From a bacterium (lineage in GTDB: Bacteria > B130-G9): DNA of 13,075 nt. The position numbers and the translations under genes were made by a program. Each line of letters starts with the position of its first letter. The stretch's first letter is position 1. Below the pieces are notes generated by a model, which searched no databases, was not told the DNA's origin, and worked only from the letters and a program-made list of their open reading frames with translations. This document shows positions 1 to 12,910 of this stretch, one piece after another. The stretch is from contig JAGHCW010000039.1 of the NCBI GenBank assembly GCA_021160245.1, forward strand, positions 1 to 13,075, given 5' to 3'.

Positions 1-476
1 ACGCTTCTTTTGCTAACGAATGTTGAGATTAAGCCGACGCTCAAGGGTGTTTTGTGGGTCGTGATGGCGTACGTTGCCAGATGGCGTGTTGAGGAAATGA
101 TACGTTTCATTAAACAGAGCTATAAGTTGGAGGATATTCGATTACGCAGTTACAATGGGCTTCGCAATATGACGGCTTTGGTGATGGCTTGCGCGAGTTT
201 CGTGAGCCTGCAACTCGGCCTTCAGGCGAAACTTCAGATTTTCATGCGGAAGTTGCTCAGCAAGCTGCAGGGAGCAAGGAGTTCGCCGTCATGCTCATCT
301 CCGAGGCGCCCCTTTGCCTCTTATCTAATGAGATACATTTAAGTCTCCCACATTTCACATCTGGTCAGGTTGATGAGCTCATTCGGCACTATCTAGGCTG
401 TGCGCTGCGGAGGGACGTATATTATCTCCCCCTGCCCGACACGGTTGAGGAGACTGAGAATCAGGCGAAACTCTGA
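1..476 (+). pseudogene. IS4-family transposase, 3' part, frameshifted
   Basis: This is the C-terminal part of a DDE transposase that would cut and join insertion-sequence ends. The reading frame is open from base 1, so the gene starts outside the window. The protein read from the TTG at base 10 shows the IS4-family YREK signature with exact spacing: Y21, two residues, R24, three residues, E28, six residues, K35. E28 would be the catalytic Glu of the DDE triad. Frame 1 continues in family-like fashion to about residue 85 (near base 265), then becomes Ser/Arg-rich and stops at 342. Frame 3 is open to 476, and from about base 265 it reads like the expected transposase C-terminus (KEFAVMLISEA, then LLSNEIHLSLPHF). 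I therefore infer a frameshift in the stretch around 255-275, leaving a decayed copy; a sequencing error cannot be excluded. No terminal inverted repeat was recognised downstream, so the IS boundary is undefined. Confidence 0.7.
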
Positions 477-743
477 CAGATCCCACCAAACGCCCGCTAA
501 CGCATACTCGCCTTCTTGTGATGTTCTGACACTACCCCGATGACAGCAAGCCGGCAGAACACCGCCATGGAATTATTCTGGGCAACCTGGGTGTTATCAC
601 CGAGTCATGGTGTGCCTTAAATCGCTTGGTATGCTGTCAGTATGCTATTTACCTGCGTAAGCATCAGTGAGTATCAGGCTATATAGGTAAAACCCTCTCG
701 AGGGGAATTTGAGGGCTGAGATCGTTCGGACCGCGGCTGTAGA

Positions 744-820
744 TGGTCGGGGCGGGCGGACTTGAACCGCCGACCCCCGGTTCCCAAAACCGGTGCGCTA
801 CCGGACTGCGCTACGCCCCG
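744..820 (-). tRNA. tRNA-Pro (anticodon UGG)
   Basis: On the minus strand this 77-nt stretch folds as a full cloverleaf. The acceptor arm is CGGGGCG paired with CGCCCCG, followed by discriminator A and an encoded CCA (744-746). The D stem is GCGC/GCGC. The anticodon stem is CCGGT/ACCGG around loop TTTGGGA, with anticodon TGG at 784-786. The variable loop has 5 nt, and the T stem GGCGG/CCGCC encloses TTCAAGT. A UGG anticodon decodes proline codons CCN/CCA. It lies 42 bp downstream of the beta-barrel gene on the same strand, so co-transcription is possible. Its 3' end points toward the transposase remnant. Confidence 0.97.
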
Positions 821-831
821 GAAATCATCCT

Positions 832-848
832 TAAGCCGTTAGGGCTTA
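832..848 (-). terminator. Short hairpin between beta-barrel gene and tRNA
   Basis: Bases 832-837 (TAAGCC) and 843-848 (GGCTTA) form a perfect 6-bp stem with a 5-nt loop. It sits 14 bp past the end of the beta-barrel gene and just before the tRNA. No T-tract follows in the minus-strand direction, so it is a weak terminator candidate. It could equally be a processing hairpin ahead of the tRNA, or chance. Confidence 0.25.
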
Positions 849-862
849 GAGAATACTATATA

Positions 863-1762
863 TCAGAAGGTGTAAACCAGGGAGAGAGCAACCCCATTCA
901 ATTTGTCGGTCCAGATAGGAGCCTCCTGTGTCCTGGTGTCGTCCGGTTTCGTTCGCTGCATCCACCAGCCGAGCTTTACGTCTAGGGGAGTGTTCTGAAT
1001 GGAATAGGCAATGCCAAGCTCCATCTTGTAGCTCTCCAGCCTGCCTGTGAGGCAGTAATGATCCTCAATGTCCGGTGGACCCGCGCCTTTGAACCTGAAC
1101 TCCCGCCTTTGGGCGTACTTTATGTTGAGGATAGGAAGCATCATACCATTGCCCCAAGCATAGAACCCCTGGATGTGCGGAGATTCAAGAGCCAACCCAA
1201 ATTGGAAGCCATGAATACGATTTCTCTCCGAATTGGTAGTCTCATATTCATAGGTGCCGACTGGCACTTCAAGCCCAAGATACTCTTGCCATATACCTTC
1301 GCCGCGCTTTTCAAAGTTGTAATGTTTCAGCCATTTGTATCCCATAATCAATGAGAAGTAGCGGCGCCAAGGGGTAAATCGGATGAAGGCCTCAATGTCT
1401 TCACGTCTGGCCCTGATGCTGCCGTCTTCCTTGGTCTGGCGCCATCCGATATCCCGACGATTCCTGACTTCGTATTCCCCATCAAAATGGCCGAGGAGAT
1501 AGTGGCCGCCGATGCCGATGTGACCTTCAGCGAAGGAGAGCTCGAACGTTGGTCCGGCAAGGCCCCATGTTGAGTCCATATCATACTTGCCAGTGATACC
1601 ATTGCTCCAAGCGTCACCGTGCTCAAAACTCCAGGTTCCTGCAAAATACGTGACACCGAGTGAGTAGCTGAACGCTGCCTCTTCTTCCTCGTCCTCCGCG
1701 AAGACGGAAGTGGCGAGAATCGCAGTCAACGCTAGAATGAGCAGAAGTGAGTATCGCCTCAT
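863..1762 (-). CDS. Exported protein, probable outer-membrane beta-barrel
   Basis: I do not recognise a named family. The 299-aa product starts with a clear signal peptide: MRRY, a hydrophobic run to about residue 20, then a likely cut after SVFA (A22). The mature N-terminus is strongly acidic (EDEEEE). The rest is rich in Gly, Tyr, Trp and Phe in alternating patterns, with short stretches such as FELSFAEGHIGIGGHYLLG and MELGIAYSIQ that fit amphipathic beta strands. The last residue is Phe, preceded by the alternating stretch VALSLVYTF, the classic recognition end for BAM-assembled outer-membrane proteins. The ATG at 1762 is preceded by AAAGGAG with a 6-nt spacer. No neighbour suggests a substrate. 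Role in transport, adhesion or structure is unknown; the barrel call is inference from composition and the two termini. Confidence 0.75.
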   Translation of the reverse strand: MRRYSLLLILALTAILATSVFAEDEEEEAAFSYSLGVTYFAGTWSFEHGDAWSNGITGKYDMDSTWGLAGPTFELSFAEGHIGIGGHYLLGHFDGEYEVRNRRDIGWRQTKEDGSIRARREDIEAFIRFTPWRRYFSLIMGYKWLKHYNFEKRGEGIWQEYLGLEVPVGTYEYETTNSERNRIHGFQFGLALESPHIQGFYAWGNGMMLPILNIKYAQRREFRFKGAGPPDIEDHYCLTGRLESYKMELGIAYSIQNTPLDVKLGWWMQRTKPDDTRTQEAPIWTDKLNGVALSLVYTF

Positions 1763-8149: not shown

Positions 8150-8179
8150 GGAGGCTGCACATTGAGTCCGGCAGCCTCC
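8150..8179 (-). terminator. Perfect 9-bp hairpin after the large secreted-protein gene
   Basis: GGAGGCTGC (8150-8158) and GCAGCCTCC (8171-8179) are perfect inverted repeats with a 12-nt loop, 34 bp past the stop codon of the large gene. The stem is GC-rich, as in intrinsic terminators, but no T-tract follows in the minus direction. It probably ends or stabilises the long transcript and separates it from the engB cluster. Confidence 0.5.
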
Positions 8180-8213: not shown

Positions 8214-11200
8214 TCAGTCCAGCCTCGTTCCCCAGGCCTCCGTTGCCGGAACAAGACAACCTTTGCCGGTTGCGGTGTCGAGAAGCATTCCCCAGACGAC
8301 AATCGGCTTAGGTGCGGCTTCTTTCGATACGATTGTGATGCTCCCCTCGCCGTGAACGTCAACTTCGCCGACAAAATGCTCAGCCATGCTGTTGGGGATC
8401 AGACCATCTATATCGATTTCGCCAATCGGATATCCATGCCGGTCATTGACGTACATTGTGGCGAATAACGGAGTGTCGTTGGTGTTACGGACGAATATCA
8501 TCGTCTCCTTGTTCTGAAGCTCGTCTCGTTCCCAATACGGTAGATAGATGGGTGGCTCGTGCATCCTTGCGGGTGGCACGGAGTAGAAAGTCATCGAGAT
8601 GTTGTTTAGCCATACCGCGAAGACGCCGATGTCATCCCCGAGTCCCCACGACGCCTCTGCAAAGCCACCATCGACCATGCCCTTTCTGCGAGTGCATCGG
8701 CTGGCTTGCACAAAGCCCAGGCCGCCTGGCGGAATCGACTTTAAGTCTGCGCCTCGCATTTGCCCGGCTTCGTTGTAGAACATGGTCTGGGGCGATGCGG
8801 GAGTCTCACCGTAGTTGTTGAAGACGATGAACGAGTCTATGCTTGGGATGGCCATATTCTTCCATGATGACACAAGATAAGGAGAGGGTTCCGACCTCTC
8901 AATGACCGGAATCTCAATGCCACCGCCAGTCTTGTAGTTGATCATGGCGGCCCAAACTCTGATTGGATCGCTTACTGTTATCTCTGCCGAGCCGAAATTC
9001 GGGCCTTCGAATATGGATTCCGACAGGTCCAAAACCTTGGTCGCCTTGCGGTCTAGTACAGGGTGAATCTCGGCGGACCTTGCCCCGAATTCGTCGAACA
9101 GGTCAATGGTTACATCGACATCGTTGTCATGCGGGTTGGCCAGAACGATTGTCGTATCGAATATCCGCCTGACCTCTGCGCCAACTCCCGCCTCAGTTGC
9201 AACCTGCCAGAAAGGCAGATGAAGCGGACCTGGCCTGGCTCCACTCAGAGTCACCGGAATACTGCCTCCGGCGTCTATCTTGCAATAGACCACCAGCTTG
9301 CCGGTCGGCCAAGTTGCAAATCCGGTTCCGTAGTCGTTCTGATTTTGGTGGACACCGTCAACCTGCGACAGCCTGAAAACCACCGTCGCTCCGGGCTCGA
9401 TAGCGAAGGGATATTTCGGAATCTCTTCGGCGTTGAATCTTGTGAGAGTCAGTGTTACCAAAGCTGGTTCCTCGCCCGGATTCGTTACTATAAGGCTCGT
9501 ATCGATCCCAAGATTCTTGTTGACCAACCAATAGGGGATCATGGCCTCCAGGGCATGTTCAATGACAGGCCCGATGAAGTAACCTGTTGTCGGGTATCTC
9601 GCCGTGCCTCCAAAGCCGTCATTGGCGAAGAAGTAGTAGTGATGATCACCAGTGGCAAGCGTTCCAGGAGAAGCAAAGTATGTGTAAGTGCCCTCGAAGT
9701 CAACCCCTGATGCTAGAGACATCTTATGCTCTTGATCATCCACCCAAACCGAGATTAGCTGAGGCGCATCCCCCTGTTCGTCATAGTAATCGACAGAGAA
9801 AGCATACATATCGAGGAATCCCCCACTATTCGGGGTAACGAGACCGCCTGCGAGCGTTGGAGGAACATTTGTCTTGCGAATGAATGGGCCTTCAAATTGG
9901 TCTCCGGGCGTCCGTGGTAATCTGGTCTGTGCGCCCAAATTGTCCGCAGCATAGAACCAATAGGAGTGAAGTCCCTCGCTCAGTCCGGAGACTACAGCCG
10001 AATAGACGCCGTTGAACGCGGCTCCATCTACAAGCCCCATAGTATGGACCTCATCATCGACGTAAAGCCAAACGTCCTGAGGAGGATTCGCATTCATATC
10101 GGCATAGCTCACAGCAAATACGAAGTCAGTGGAGGTGGTCCCTGAAGCCGGGTCAACAATCCCATTCGTTAGCACCGGCGGGATATTGGTGTCACTGATG
10201 TTTGGTCCACTTATCTCGCCTTTAAGAGGCAGCCTACCCGTTCCACCGGTCTCATCGACGAAATTGAAGTAATAGTGGTGGGTTCCTATGGAAAGGTCTG
10301 CCGTGGTGAAATAATATGTGGCCCCACTCGCGTAGTTGATGTTACCGAATTCATCGTAGAATGCGTCCAAGAACAACATGTCGTAGGGCGAGCCATCAAT
10401 TATCAAGTCTTTACTTATCGGCTCGTAGTTATGGGGACTCGTGTAGCGCGCGGTGAACGATACCGGTGAATTTACAAGCTGGTTTGCCGGCGTAACGATT
10501 CCATCCGAGAGCATGGGAACCTGGTCGCCGCCCAAGACGACGGGTCCGTTGATATGGCCGGCCAGAGGAACACGAGCGGCCTTGCCATAACCGTCCGTGA
10601 ACTCGAAGTAGTAGTCATGAGCTTCCTCGGTCAAGAACGTCTGATATTCATAGAGCCCGTCGGATGCAACGCCGGATACAAGAGTCATACTATGCGGCAC
10701 GTCGTCGATGAAGATGAATGGTGTGCTGGGCGCGTCGCCATCCGCATCGTAATAGTGCGCCGAATATGTAAAGAGCGTTATCCTCGAACCCGTCGAAGGC
10801 AGCAATTGGGAGGATGTCAGTTCGGGAGCGCTATTGTATTGGTCCCCAACTCTGAGATCGTAGTAGATACCCCCTCGGGCCGGTTGCCTTGCCGTTCCGC
10901 CATTGCCATCGTTGAAATAGAAGTAATACTGGTGGACGCCGGCCGTAAGCCTCAGTGTAGACTCGTAGTAACAATCAGAACGCTTAACATCGGGGAATGT
11001 CCCGATCATCGTCATTGGGTAGGCGACGCCGTCTAAGACGACCCAAGCCTCGCTAGGGCCGCTATCGCCGTCCCACATCCCATTGCAGTTCATATCGTCA
11101 AAACGTTCCGCTTCCCAATGGCCATTGTTGTTGACATCAATATAGGTATCGTAGTCCTTCGGATTATACGGCGCGTAGTCGGAGGACCACCAGTCGCTCA

Positions 11201-12821
11201 CATCTGGCCAAGGAGTACTGTCCGGATCGGCATACCACGTGTCGGAGGAGCATCTATCGCCCATGTCATTCCAGGGCTCAGCGTCGCAAATGCCGTTACC
11301 GGCAATCGGATCACCCTTATAGTCAAGCTGCGTTCCGCCGTAGCGCTGATCTGCCCAGTTTCCACCGTTGTCATCCCTAATGGTGTTGAAGGGCTCGAAA
11401 TTAGGCTCAAAATACGGGGGCAATGCAGTCTCTCGATAGAAGGTCGCCTCGTCCTCATCGTAGTAGTGAATGTGGAAATTGAAATTAGAGTCCGGTGGGC
11501 CTGAATGTGGCTCCACCGCCGGCTCGGACAGCACCGGTGGAGTGTTCTGGAAGCCAAGAGGAGACGCGATTATGATCTCCCAGTTCCCAAAAGATTCCAT
11601 TGCTGCGTGGAACTTGCCTCTACCCCAAGTATTGTGAGCGATGACCTCGTGAACGGCGCCGTGGTAACTGTACCCGACGCCCAAGACCGCGTGCGTGTTC
11701 CAACCGTTACCTGAACCGTCCTGCTGAATGCCGAAATAGACTGGATGATTCTTGTTTATCTCAATTTGTAGAGTTGTTATGATGTCCTGAGTAACACCGC
11801 CTGCGCTGGTTAGGGCATCTGTGCTGAAAGGGTACCTATAAAAGTCACCGGTAGCCTCAATGGCGTATCTGGCTACAGGCCTTGTTATCCCATACTGCAT
11901 GAGATCGCAGCCCTCATAGCCCGCGCCGCCCAGATCACCTTGCGATTGACCAAACTCCACGACTTTGTCATTTAGTTCCCGAATCGTATAGGGATTGCTC
12001 GTATTCGGGCACCATGCAAATGACTCCGGACCCTCACCCCAGAACCTACGGTAGCCCCAAGAACCGCCGTAATAGGAGAGCATCATTGTGATTGTCGTTG
12101 GTCCACAACCCTTATACCAAACATACTCGTAATCGTGGGCATCGCTGTTGTATATCTTGGCTACATAAACATCTCCGCCCTGCTTGACCTCCGGCGGAGG
12201 GCCGGCCAAGACGTTGTGGCGCCAAAAGCCGTTGATCTCGTCTGCCTCCCTAGCCACAGCGGAGTAATATGTGTCAATACGTCTAACCAGACTTTCGCGG
12301 GGAACTACTTGCATGTTGCCCAGGTGGACAACAAGCCCCTCTGCAGCGGCCTTGTTCTCTGCGCTCTTGGGTTTGATCCTCACCAAGTAGTCAAATGGCG
12401 GCGAGAAAATACGCTCCACATCGCCAGGCTCAACGCCAATCTCACGCGCAACATCAAGCGCCTCATCGAATCGCGCGTCGGGGCGCTGCGACTCTGAGTG
12501 CATGAAATACGGGAAGCAATCGTCACGAGCGCTTACCGTTAAGAACCCTAAGTAACGGCTGCCCTTCGTTATGGAATAGACGTAGGCGAGTGGAACACTC
12601 TCCGCATCGTAATAGGTTGCGGGGTTCGTAAGAGCCGCGCCTTCCCATGTTGAATGCGAGGAGGACGTTACTGCAAAGCAGTAATCAAGCGATTTTTGAA
12701 GCTTCTCCGGTGTTAGAACGTCGCTGAATGCAAAAACCCCGAAGCAAAATAACAATAGAGCGGACAAGATGAACGCCCCTGATGACAGTCTTGTGCCGAG
12801 TGAGAACCACCGATGAGTCAT
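8214..12821 (-). CDS. Giant secreted protein: papain-like peptidase plus Ig-like and C-terminal repeats
   Basis: The product is a 1535-aa secreted protein with no gene name I can give. Residues 1-31 form a signal peptide (hydrophobic 15-31, likely cut after GVFA). Residues 33-210 resemble a propeptide (LAYVYSITKGSRYLGFLTVS), similar in style to C10 peptidase prodomains. Residues 215-420 look like a papain-fold peptidase of the C39/C10 kind: Cys239 in KGCGPTTITMMLSYYG, His377 in NGWNTHAVLGVGY and Asn397 in IAHNTWGRG. The usual Gln six residues before the Cys is absent (Y233), so activity is uncertain. Five Ig-like repeats of about 100 aa follow (428-1088), the first split by an insertion, then four other beta repeats (1093-1527). 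I see no LPXTG, transmembrane anchor or recognised sorting domain at the C-terminus. The ATG is preceded by AGGAGGAG with 7 nt between. The repeats suggest cell-surface or extracellular binding; the substrate is unknown. Confidence 0.85.
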   Translation of the reverse strand: MTHRWFSLGTRLSSGAFILSALLLFCFGVFAFSDVLTPEKLQKSLDYCFAVTSSSHSTWEGAALTNPATYYDAESVPLAYVYSITKGSRYLGFLTVSARDDCFPYFMHSESQRPDARFDEALDVAREIGVEPGDVERIFSPPFDYLVRIKPKSAENKAAAEGLVVHLGNMQVVPRESLVRRIDTYYSAVAREADEINGFWRHNVLAGPPPEVKQGGDVYVAKIYNSDAHDYEYVWYKGCGPTTITMMLSYYGGSWGYRRFWGEGPESFAWCPNTSNPYTIRELNDKVVEFGQSQGDLGGAGYEGCDLMQYGITRPVARYAIEATGDFYRYPFSTDALTSAGGVTQDIITTLQIEINKNHPVYFGIQQDGSGNGWNTHAVLGVGYSYHGAVHEVIAHNTWGRGKFHAAMESFGNWEIIIASPLGFQNTPPVLSEPAVEPHSGPPDSNFNFHIHYYDEDEATFYRETALPPYFEPNFEPFNTIRDDNGGNWADQRYGGTQLDYKGDPIAGNGICDAEPWNDMGDRCSSDTWYADPDSTPWPDVSDWWSSDYAPYNPKDYDTYIDVNNNGHWEAERFDDMNCNGMWDGDSGPSEAWVVLDGVAYPMTMIGTFPDVKRSDCYYESTLRLTAGVHQYYFYFNDGNGGTARQPARGGIYYDLRVGDQYNSAPELTSSQLLPSTGSRITLFTYSAHYYDADGDAPSTPFIFIDDVPHSMTLVSGVASDGLYEYQTFLTEEAHDYYFEFTDGYGKAARVPLAGHINGPVVLGGDQVPMLSDGIVTPANQLVNSPVSFTARYTSPHNYEPISKDLIIDGSPYDMLFLDAFYDEFGNINYASGATYYFTTADLSIGTHHYYFNFVDETGGTGRLPLKGEISGPNISDTNIPPVLTNGIVDPASGTTSTDFVFAVSYADMNANPPQDVWLYVDDEVHTMGLVDGAAFNGVYSAVVSGLSEGLHSYWFYAADNLGAQTRLPRTPGDQFEGPFIRKTNVPPTLAGGLVTPNSGGFLDMYAFSVDYYDEQGDAPQLISVWVDDQEHKMSLASGVDFEGTYTYFASPGTLATGDHHYYFFANDGFGGTARYPTTGYFIGPVIEHALEAMIPYWLVNKNLGIDTSLIVTNPGEEPALVTLTLTRFNAEEIPKYPFAIEPGATVVFRLSQVDGVHQNQNDYGTGFATWPTGKLVVYCKIDAGGSIPVTLSGARPGPLHLPFWQVATEAGVGAEVRRIFDTTIVLANPHDNDVDVTIDLFDEFGARSAEIHPVLDRKATKVLDLSESIFEGPNFGSAEITVSDPIRVWAAMINYKTGGGIEIPVIERSEPSPYLVSSWKNMAIPSIDSFIVFNNYGETPASPQTMFYNEAGQMRGADLKSIPPGGLGFVQASRCTRRKGMVDGGFAEASWGLGDDIGVFAVWLNNISMTFYSVPPARMHEPPIYLPYWERDELQNKETMIFVRNTNDTPLFATMYVNDRHGYPIGEIDIDGLIPNSMAEHFVGEVDVHGEGSITIVSKEAAPKPIVVWGMLLDTATGKGCLVPATEAWGTRLD
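8241..9545 (-). repeat. Four C-terminal ~110-aa repeats in the giant protein
   Basis: Residues 1093-1527 hold four divergent copies starting near 1095, 1201, 1314 and 1425. Each opens with a Pro/aromatic segment (IPYW, HLPFW, YLVSSW, YLPYW). It then has a strand with T-x-I-V-x-N or similar (TSLIVTNP, TTIVLANP, DSFIVFNN, ETMIFVRNT), a middle D/N-x-x-G turn, and a late strand with PI-x-VW or similar (DPIRVWAAM, KPIVVWGML). The pattern predicts tandem beta sandwiches. I do not recognise the family. Confidence 0.65.
9558..11540 (-). repeat. Five Ig-like repeats in the giant protein
   Basis: Residues 428-1088 contain five copies beginning near 428, 665, 767, 880 and 986. Shared landmarks are PPxL near the start, then V-x-P-x-SG, a YYD-x-x-GDAP strand, a DD-x-x-H-x-M-x-L hairpin, G-x-H-x-YYF-x-F-x-DG-x-GGTAR-x-P, and a closing G-x-x-x-GP. 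The third copy is the most divergent (NYEPISKDLIIDG), and the first carries the insertion described separately. Such repeats are typical of surface or extracellular adhesion and spacer regions. Confidence 0.75.
11058..11435 (-). other. Asp/Cys-rich insertion with calcium-loop-like motifs
   Basis: This segment codes for residues 463-588 and sits inside the first Ig-like repeat, between its YYDEDEATFY strand and its SEAWVVLDGVAYPM strand. It is rich in Asp, Asn, Trp and Tyr. It has two loop motifs resembling calcium-binding D-x-N-x-N-G repeats: DVNNNGHWE (562-570) and DMNCNGMWD (576-584). Cysteines 512, 524 and 579 lie inside it. Calcium binding is inferred from pattern only. Confidence 0.55.
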
Positions 12822-12880
12822 AGCCAGACTCCTCCTTAGTGAAGTGTGCTAGTTATAGCGTTGCACGATAATCCACGTAT

Positions 12881-12910
12881 AATATAGCGATCTCTGGTCT
12901 TTTGTGTCAA
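12881..12910 (-). promoter_or_regulatory. Sigma70-type promoter of the giant secreted-protein gene
   Basis: On the minus strand a perfect TTGACA (12905-12910) is followed after 18 bp by TATATT (12881-12886), five of six consensus bases. Transcription would start near 12874, giving a leader of about 50 nt that ends in the strong AGGAGGAG Shine-Dalgarno before the ATG at 12821. Confidence 0.65.

Follow-up and report, generated by a model that had tools for sequence, protein, structure and literature searches.

A probable exported C39-like cysteine peptidase precursor with an unclassified N-terminal domain and two repeat arrays

What kind of protein does a single long open reading frame encode in a bacterial window of 13,075 nucleotides (the whole stretch of DNA analysed), which belongs to a draft genome of 3.43 Mb that is 94.8% complete? 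An earlier note, made from the letters alone, had read the product as a secreted protein whose papain-like peptidase was kept inactive by its N-terminal region and presented on repeats. We favor the reading, with a probability of roughly 0.6, that it is the precursor of an exported C39-like, papain-type cysteine peptidase, in which a front prodomain blocks the active site and a tail of two repeat arrays follows.

The gene and its relatives

The open reading frame was intact on the minus strand, and the coordinates (8214-12821) and length (1535 amino acids) that the earlier note had given it were exact. The coding sequence and the signals at its 5' end are as follows.

8214..12821 (-) whole coding sequence, 1535 amino acids; ORF list and intact syntenic orthologs in three other genomes
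12881..12910 (-) candidate promoter, sigma-70-like TTGACA-N18-TATATT (11/12); by consensus match
12830..12836 (-) Shine-Dalgarno-like AGGAGGA just 5' of the ATG; by sequence reading
12726..12821 (-) predicted Sec signal peptide, residues 1-32; hydrophobic stretch (residues ~14-31), by inspection, seen in the orthologs too

This reading frame is a real gene. The three other genomes of the family, two of which are Candidatus Coatesbacteria by public record, each carry an ortholog in which the domain order is complete (51-57% identity across residues 33-424), and engB, a GTP-binding protein gene, lies directly after the gene on the same strand in 4/4 family genomes. Between the two closest orthologs, dN/dS was lowest in the peptidase domain (0.07), with values of 0.13 in the N-terminal domain and 0.08-0.20 in the repeats. 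The syntenic orthologs and low dN/dS indicate that the gene is old, has been inherited vertically in the family and evolves under purifying selection. A paralog of about 750 amino acids, which retains the N-terminal domain and the peptidase in front of a different tail, was also present in each of the four family genomes.

Confirming searches found no viral or plasmid relatives, and viral contigs searched for a deeper alignment yielded only a compact C39_2 protein, L042. One DNA-pattern match, L041, was rejected as a chance match to a short, unrelated ORF. A scan of genome contigs added a metagenome-assembled genome labeled Nitrospira sp., which encodes (L029, 1041-8258) a protein of at least 2406 amino acids that combines the N-terminal domain with a C39-like domain scoring 22.7 bits, just below the Pfam cut-off for PF13529, and that has many Big_13 Ig-like domains.

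Elsewhere in the window, a perfect 9-bp inverted repeat (GGAGGCTGC/GCAGCCTCC, 8150-8179) without a clear T run lies between the peptidase gene and engB. An ORF at 743-985 (+) beginning MVGAGGLEPPTPGSQNRC overlaps an opposite-strand tRNA gene at 747-820 and is almost certainly a phantom. The product of the frame at 863-1762 (-), 299 amino acids long, has a signal peptide and weakly matches an outer-membrane beta-barrel family (OMP_b-brl, E 0.3), and a transposase-like ORF at 1-342 (+) is, by inspection, a C-terminal fragment at the contig edge.

The peptidase domain and the domain in front of it

The N-terminal hydrophobic stretch reads by inspection as the signal peptide that had been proposed, one of Sec type, and the Sec route would carry the precursor out of the cytoplasm. 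Behind it lie the following features.

12207..12725 (-) N-terminal domain, residues 33-205, PepSY/cystatin-like in its model, probable propeptide; AlphaFold2 (AF2), VIA and co-occurrence
11550..12206 (-) Peptidase_C39_2-like domain, residues 206-424; PF13529 match and a papain-like Foldseek list from a low-confidence model
12105..12107 (-) Cys239, predicted nucleophile (WYKGCGPT); invariant in all aligned homologs
11691..11693 (-) His377, predicted general base (NTHAVLGVGY); invariant in all aligned homologs
11631..11633 (-) Asn397, predicted third catalytic residue (HNTWG); N/D in most homologs

The protein matched PF13529 (Peptidase_C39_2) with 25.7 bits and an E value of 1.9e-5, above the Pfam gathering cut-off of 24 bits that we used as the threshold of membership, and six homologs (two scanned orthologs and the four paralogs) reached this cut-off as well, at 24.0-35.1 bits. 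C239, H377 and N397 stand at the residues named in the earlier note, in the order seen in Peptidase_C39_2: a Cys near the domain start, a His in the G-Y strand, and then Asn/Asp. That note had described their contexts as C39/C10-like, of which the first part holds and the second does not: C10 (SpeB/streptopain) membership was rejected, as a Pfam C10 match was absent up to E 1. Nor was there support for the part that classical C39 peptidases play with ABC exporters and double-glycine leaders, since no ABC transporter domain is fused to the protein and none occurs among the window ORFs.

Neither a PDB sequence match to the whole protein nor an NCBIfam match to it was found. The best PDB sequence match of the profile was the C39-like peptidase 3erv, with the Cys and His motifs in register and an E value of 0.64 that is not significant alone. 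In AlphaFold models of residues 33-424 and 206-426 (6-7 sequences), the peptidase block had a pLDDT of about 25-57, too poor for a claim that C239, H377 and N397 cluster. Foldseek searches with the second, template-free, low-pLDDT peptidase model returned mostly papain-like structures (staphopain, cathepsins, interpain A), all at E > 0.02, and in VIA-align the top rows went to ribosomal chains of no relation, while calpain, UfSP, staphopain, SpeB and PCAT1 came lower down; the papain-like fold matches of this low-confidence model are suggestive only.

Residues 33-205 are a discrete, unclassified domain. Its model had a pLDDT of ~75 (about 60-86 across most of its length), and its best VIA match was YpmB (2gu3; 123 residues aligned, rmsd 3.8) at a Z of 6.9, a value within the range of common arrangements; the next row stood at 3.7, and the lower rows included YpeB, prostaphopain B and a vibriolysin propeptide complex. 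None of the nine members matched a Pfam family up to E 10, the PepSY, FTP and Spi propeptides included, and the domain's profile matched in the four family genomes only, of 386 sampled. The domain was paired with a C39-like peptidase in 9/9 proteins, and this constant pairing argues for a shared function. PepSY-type domains are found in some peptidase propeptides. We consider it plausible that residues 33-205 are an inhibitory propeptide that is later removed: they would fold as a PepSY/cystatin-like prodomain, which would aid folding and block the active site and would then be cleaved off. The domain is a probable new prodomain; a literature search on Coatesbacteria peptidases or C39-like prodomains found nothing relevant.

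It is also conceivable, if rather improbable, that the C39-like domain is active without a zymogen stage and that the N-terminal domain stays in the mature enzyme to assist folding or to bind substrate. The model's best structural match, YpmB, is a PepSY-like protein and not a propeptide; no processing motif was seen in residues 180-230; and the domain evolves at a moderate rate (dN/dS 0.13 vs 0.07 for the peptidase). However, its place directly between the signal peptide and the peptidase and its pairing in every homolog are what one expects of a propeptide, and other peptidases of this genome that share the Ig-like repeat module described below have known propeptides (Propeptide_C25).

With the prodomain gone, the papain-type domain (C239, H377, N397) would hydrolyze peptide bonds. 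At position 397, most orthologs have Asn, the G002 ortholog has Thr, and the paralogs have Asp. In papain, the oxyanion Gln stands at C-6; here, that position is Tyr or Phe in 12/12 sequences checked. A parallel with the tyrosine that serves as the oxyanion residue in UfSP (PMC10952357) was considered, and Tyr as a conserved oxyanion residue at C-6 was ruled out, as two orthologs have Phe. The variable third catalytic residue and the lack of Gln at the papain oxyanion position, together with repeats that make up most of the protein, would suit a pseudopeptidase, in which the papain-like fold has lost cleavage and instead provides a large surface adhesin with a binding or structural unit. We regard this as unlikely: even distant homologs retain the Cys and His without exception, no other domain is as constrained as the peptidase, and the core is kept in standalone relatives such as L042. 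Least likely of all is a papain-fold enzyme of other chemistry (an amidase, transglutaminase-like enzyme or peptidoglycan hydrolase) that would work on the envelope after export, for although such enzymes exist within the fold class, and phytochelatin synthase and UfSP appear in the Foldseek and VIA lists, the sequence membership is specifically Peptidase_C39_2.

The repeat arrays and the possible location of the predicted enzyme

The rest of the favored peptidase precursor consists of two sets of repeats.

10836..11546 (-) R1, residues 426-662, Ig-like repeat with an Asp/Asn-rich insert; repeat comparison
11061-11453 (-) R1 insert, Asp/Asn/Trp-rich, about 130 amino acids, residues ~457-587
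10524..10835 (-) R2, residues 663-766, Ig-like repeat; repeat comparison
10188..10523 (-) R3, residues 767-878, Ig-like repeat; repeat comparison
9870..10187 (-) R4, residues 879-984, Ig-like repeat; repeat comparison
9555..9869 (-) R5, residues 985-1089, Ig-like repeat; repeat comparison
9225..9545 (-) C1, residues 1093-1199, C-terminal beta repeat; repeat comparison, weak sub-threshold DUF5719 match
8883..9224 (-) C2, residues 1200-1313, C-terminal beta repeat; repeat comparison
8550..8882 (-) C3, residues 1314-1424, C-terminal beta repeat, divergent; repeat comparison
8217..8549 (-) C4, residues 1425-1535, C-terminal beta repeat; repeat comparison

The claim of five Ig-like repeats followed by four unrelated ones was borne out by these comparisons: R1-R5 are mutually related (pairwise z of 8-30 against shuffles), as are the C-terminal repeats (z of 4-7.5 among C1, C2 and C4, and a weak 1.6-3.0 for C3), and no relation was seen between the two sets (z < 2). 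The R1 insert, which the earlier note had missed, is conserved in the orthologs and ends in DVNNNGHWEAERFDDMNCNGMWDGD, which by inspection looks like paired Ca-binding loops. The C repeats scored 12.9 bits for DUF5719 (PF18986) against a cut-off of 26.2, with the orthologs also below it, and occur in one other protein of the genome.

The R module, which had no Pfam match in the 1535-amino acid protein, is lineage-expanded. At least 52 copies were found in 20 large proteins of the same genome (G000); L050, L052, L053 and L074 are among the carriers, which include S8 peptidases, C25 peptidases that have Propeptide_C25, a beta-helix protein and beta-propellers. Each of the four family genomes had at least 30 matches, and matches were sporadic in 6 of 112 others sampled. 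Peptidase_C25 (gingipain-like) gave sixteen matches in this 3.4 Mb genome, which seems many.

By analogy with the genome's other R-module peptidases, the Ig-like modules and C repeats may serve as spacers and binding modules, keeping the enzyme at the envelope, the matrix or the substrate, and they could form the surface stalk that had been proposed. No anchor or sorting tag was recognized in the protein. The genome is probably diderm, because secretins are present; a search for the T9SS marker SprA gave no match in the four genomes, nor in the control genomes.

A broader reading, which we put forward tentatively and think doubtful, is that the N-terminal domain represents an undescribed PepSY-like inhibitor family controlling a C39-like zymogen, and that R is a lineage-specific targeting module of a common surface-proteolysis system, one that would cover three or more unrelated kinds of exported peptidase (C39-like, C25 and S8). 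By this analysis, a little-studied candidate phylum gains an exported cysteine peptidase with a probable new prodomain, and the sharing of the R module across peptidases and other large exported proteins suggests a protein-degrading lifestyle. If the N-terminal domain does inhibit the enzyme, it would constitute a new propeptide family.

Comparison with known systems

No named protein with this combination of domains was found, in agreement with the earlier note; the combination is new, while the kind of peptidase is already known and the parts are mostly familiar. With Peptidase_C39_2 (3erv), the protein shares the GC(G/S)PT nucleophile and H-x-V-x-x-x-G-Y His motifs in the same order, but differs in its ~170-amino acid N-terminal domain unknown to Pfam, its two repeat arrays, the aromatic residue at C-6, and a third catalytic residue that is N, D or T. 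The compact L042 has the same VPxYxWYxGCxPT-type core but lacks the N-terminal domain and the Ig-like array; its terminal PEP-CTERM tag is absent from the 1535-amino acid protein. In YpmB (2gu3) and related PepSY proteins, the N-terminal domain model found a partner over 123/128 residues at 14% identity, with no Pfam PepSY match, and YpmB, unlike this domain, is not attached to a peptidase. The zymogens of staphopain (C47) and SpeB/interpain (C10) are likewise exported papain-type peptidases behind an N-terminal domain; these appeared among the weak fold matches, whereas the present protein has no C10 or C47 sequence-family match and has different motifs and a repeat tail. Finally, the same genome encodes gingipain-like C25 peptidases with Propeptide_C25, which are also exported and have an Ig-like tail that shares the R module, but whose peptidase clan and propeptide differ from those of the 1535-amino acid protein.
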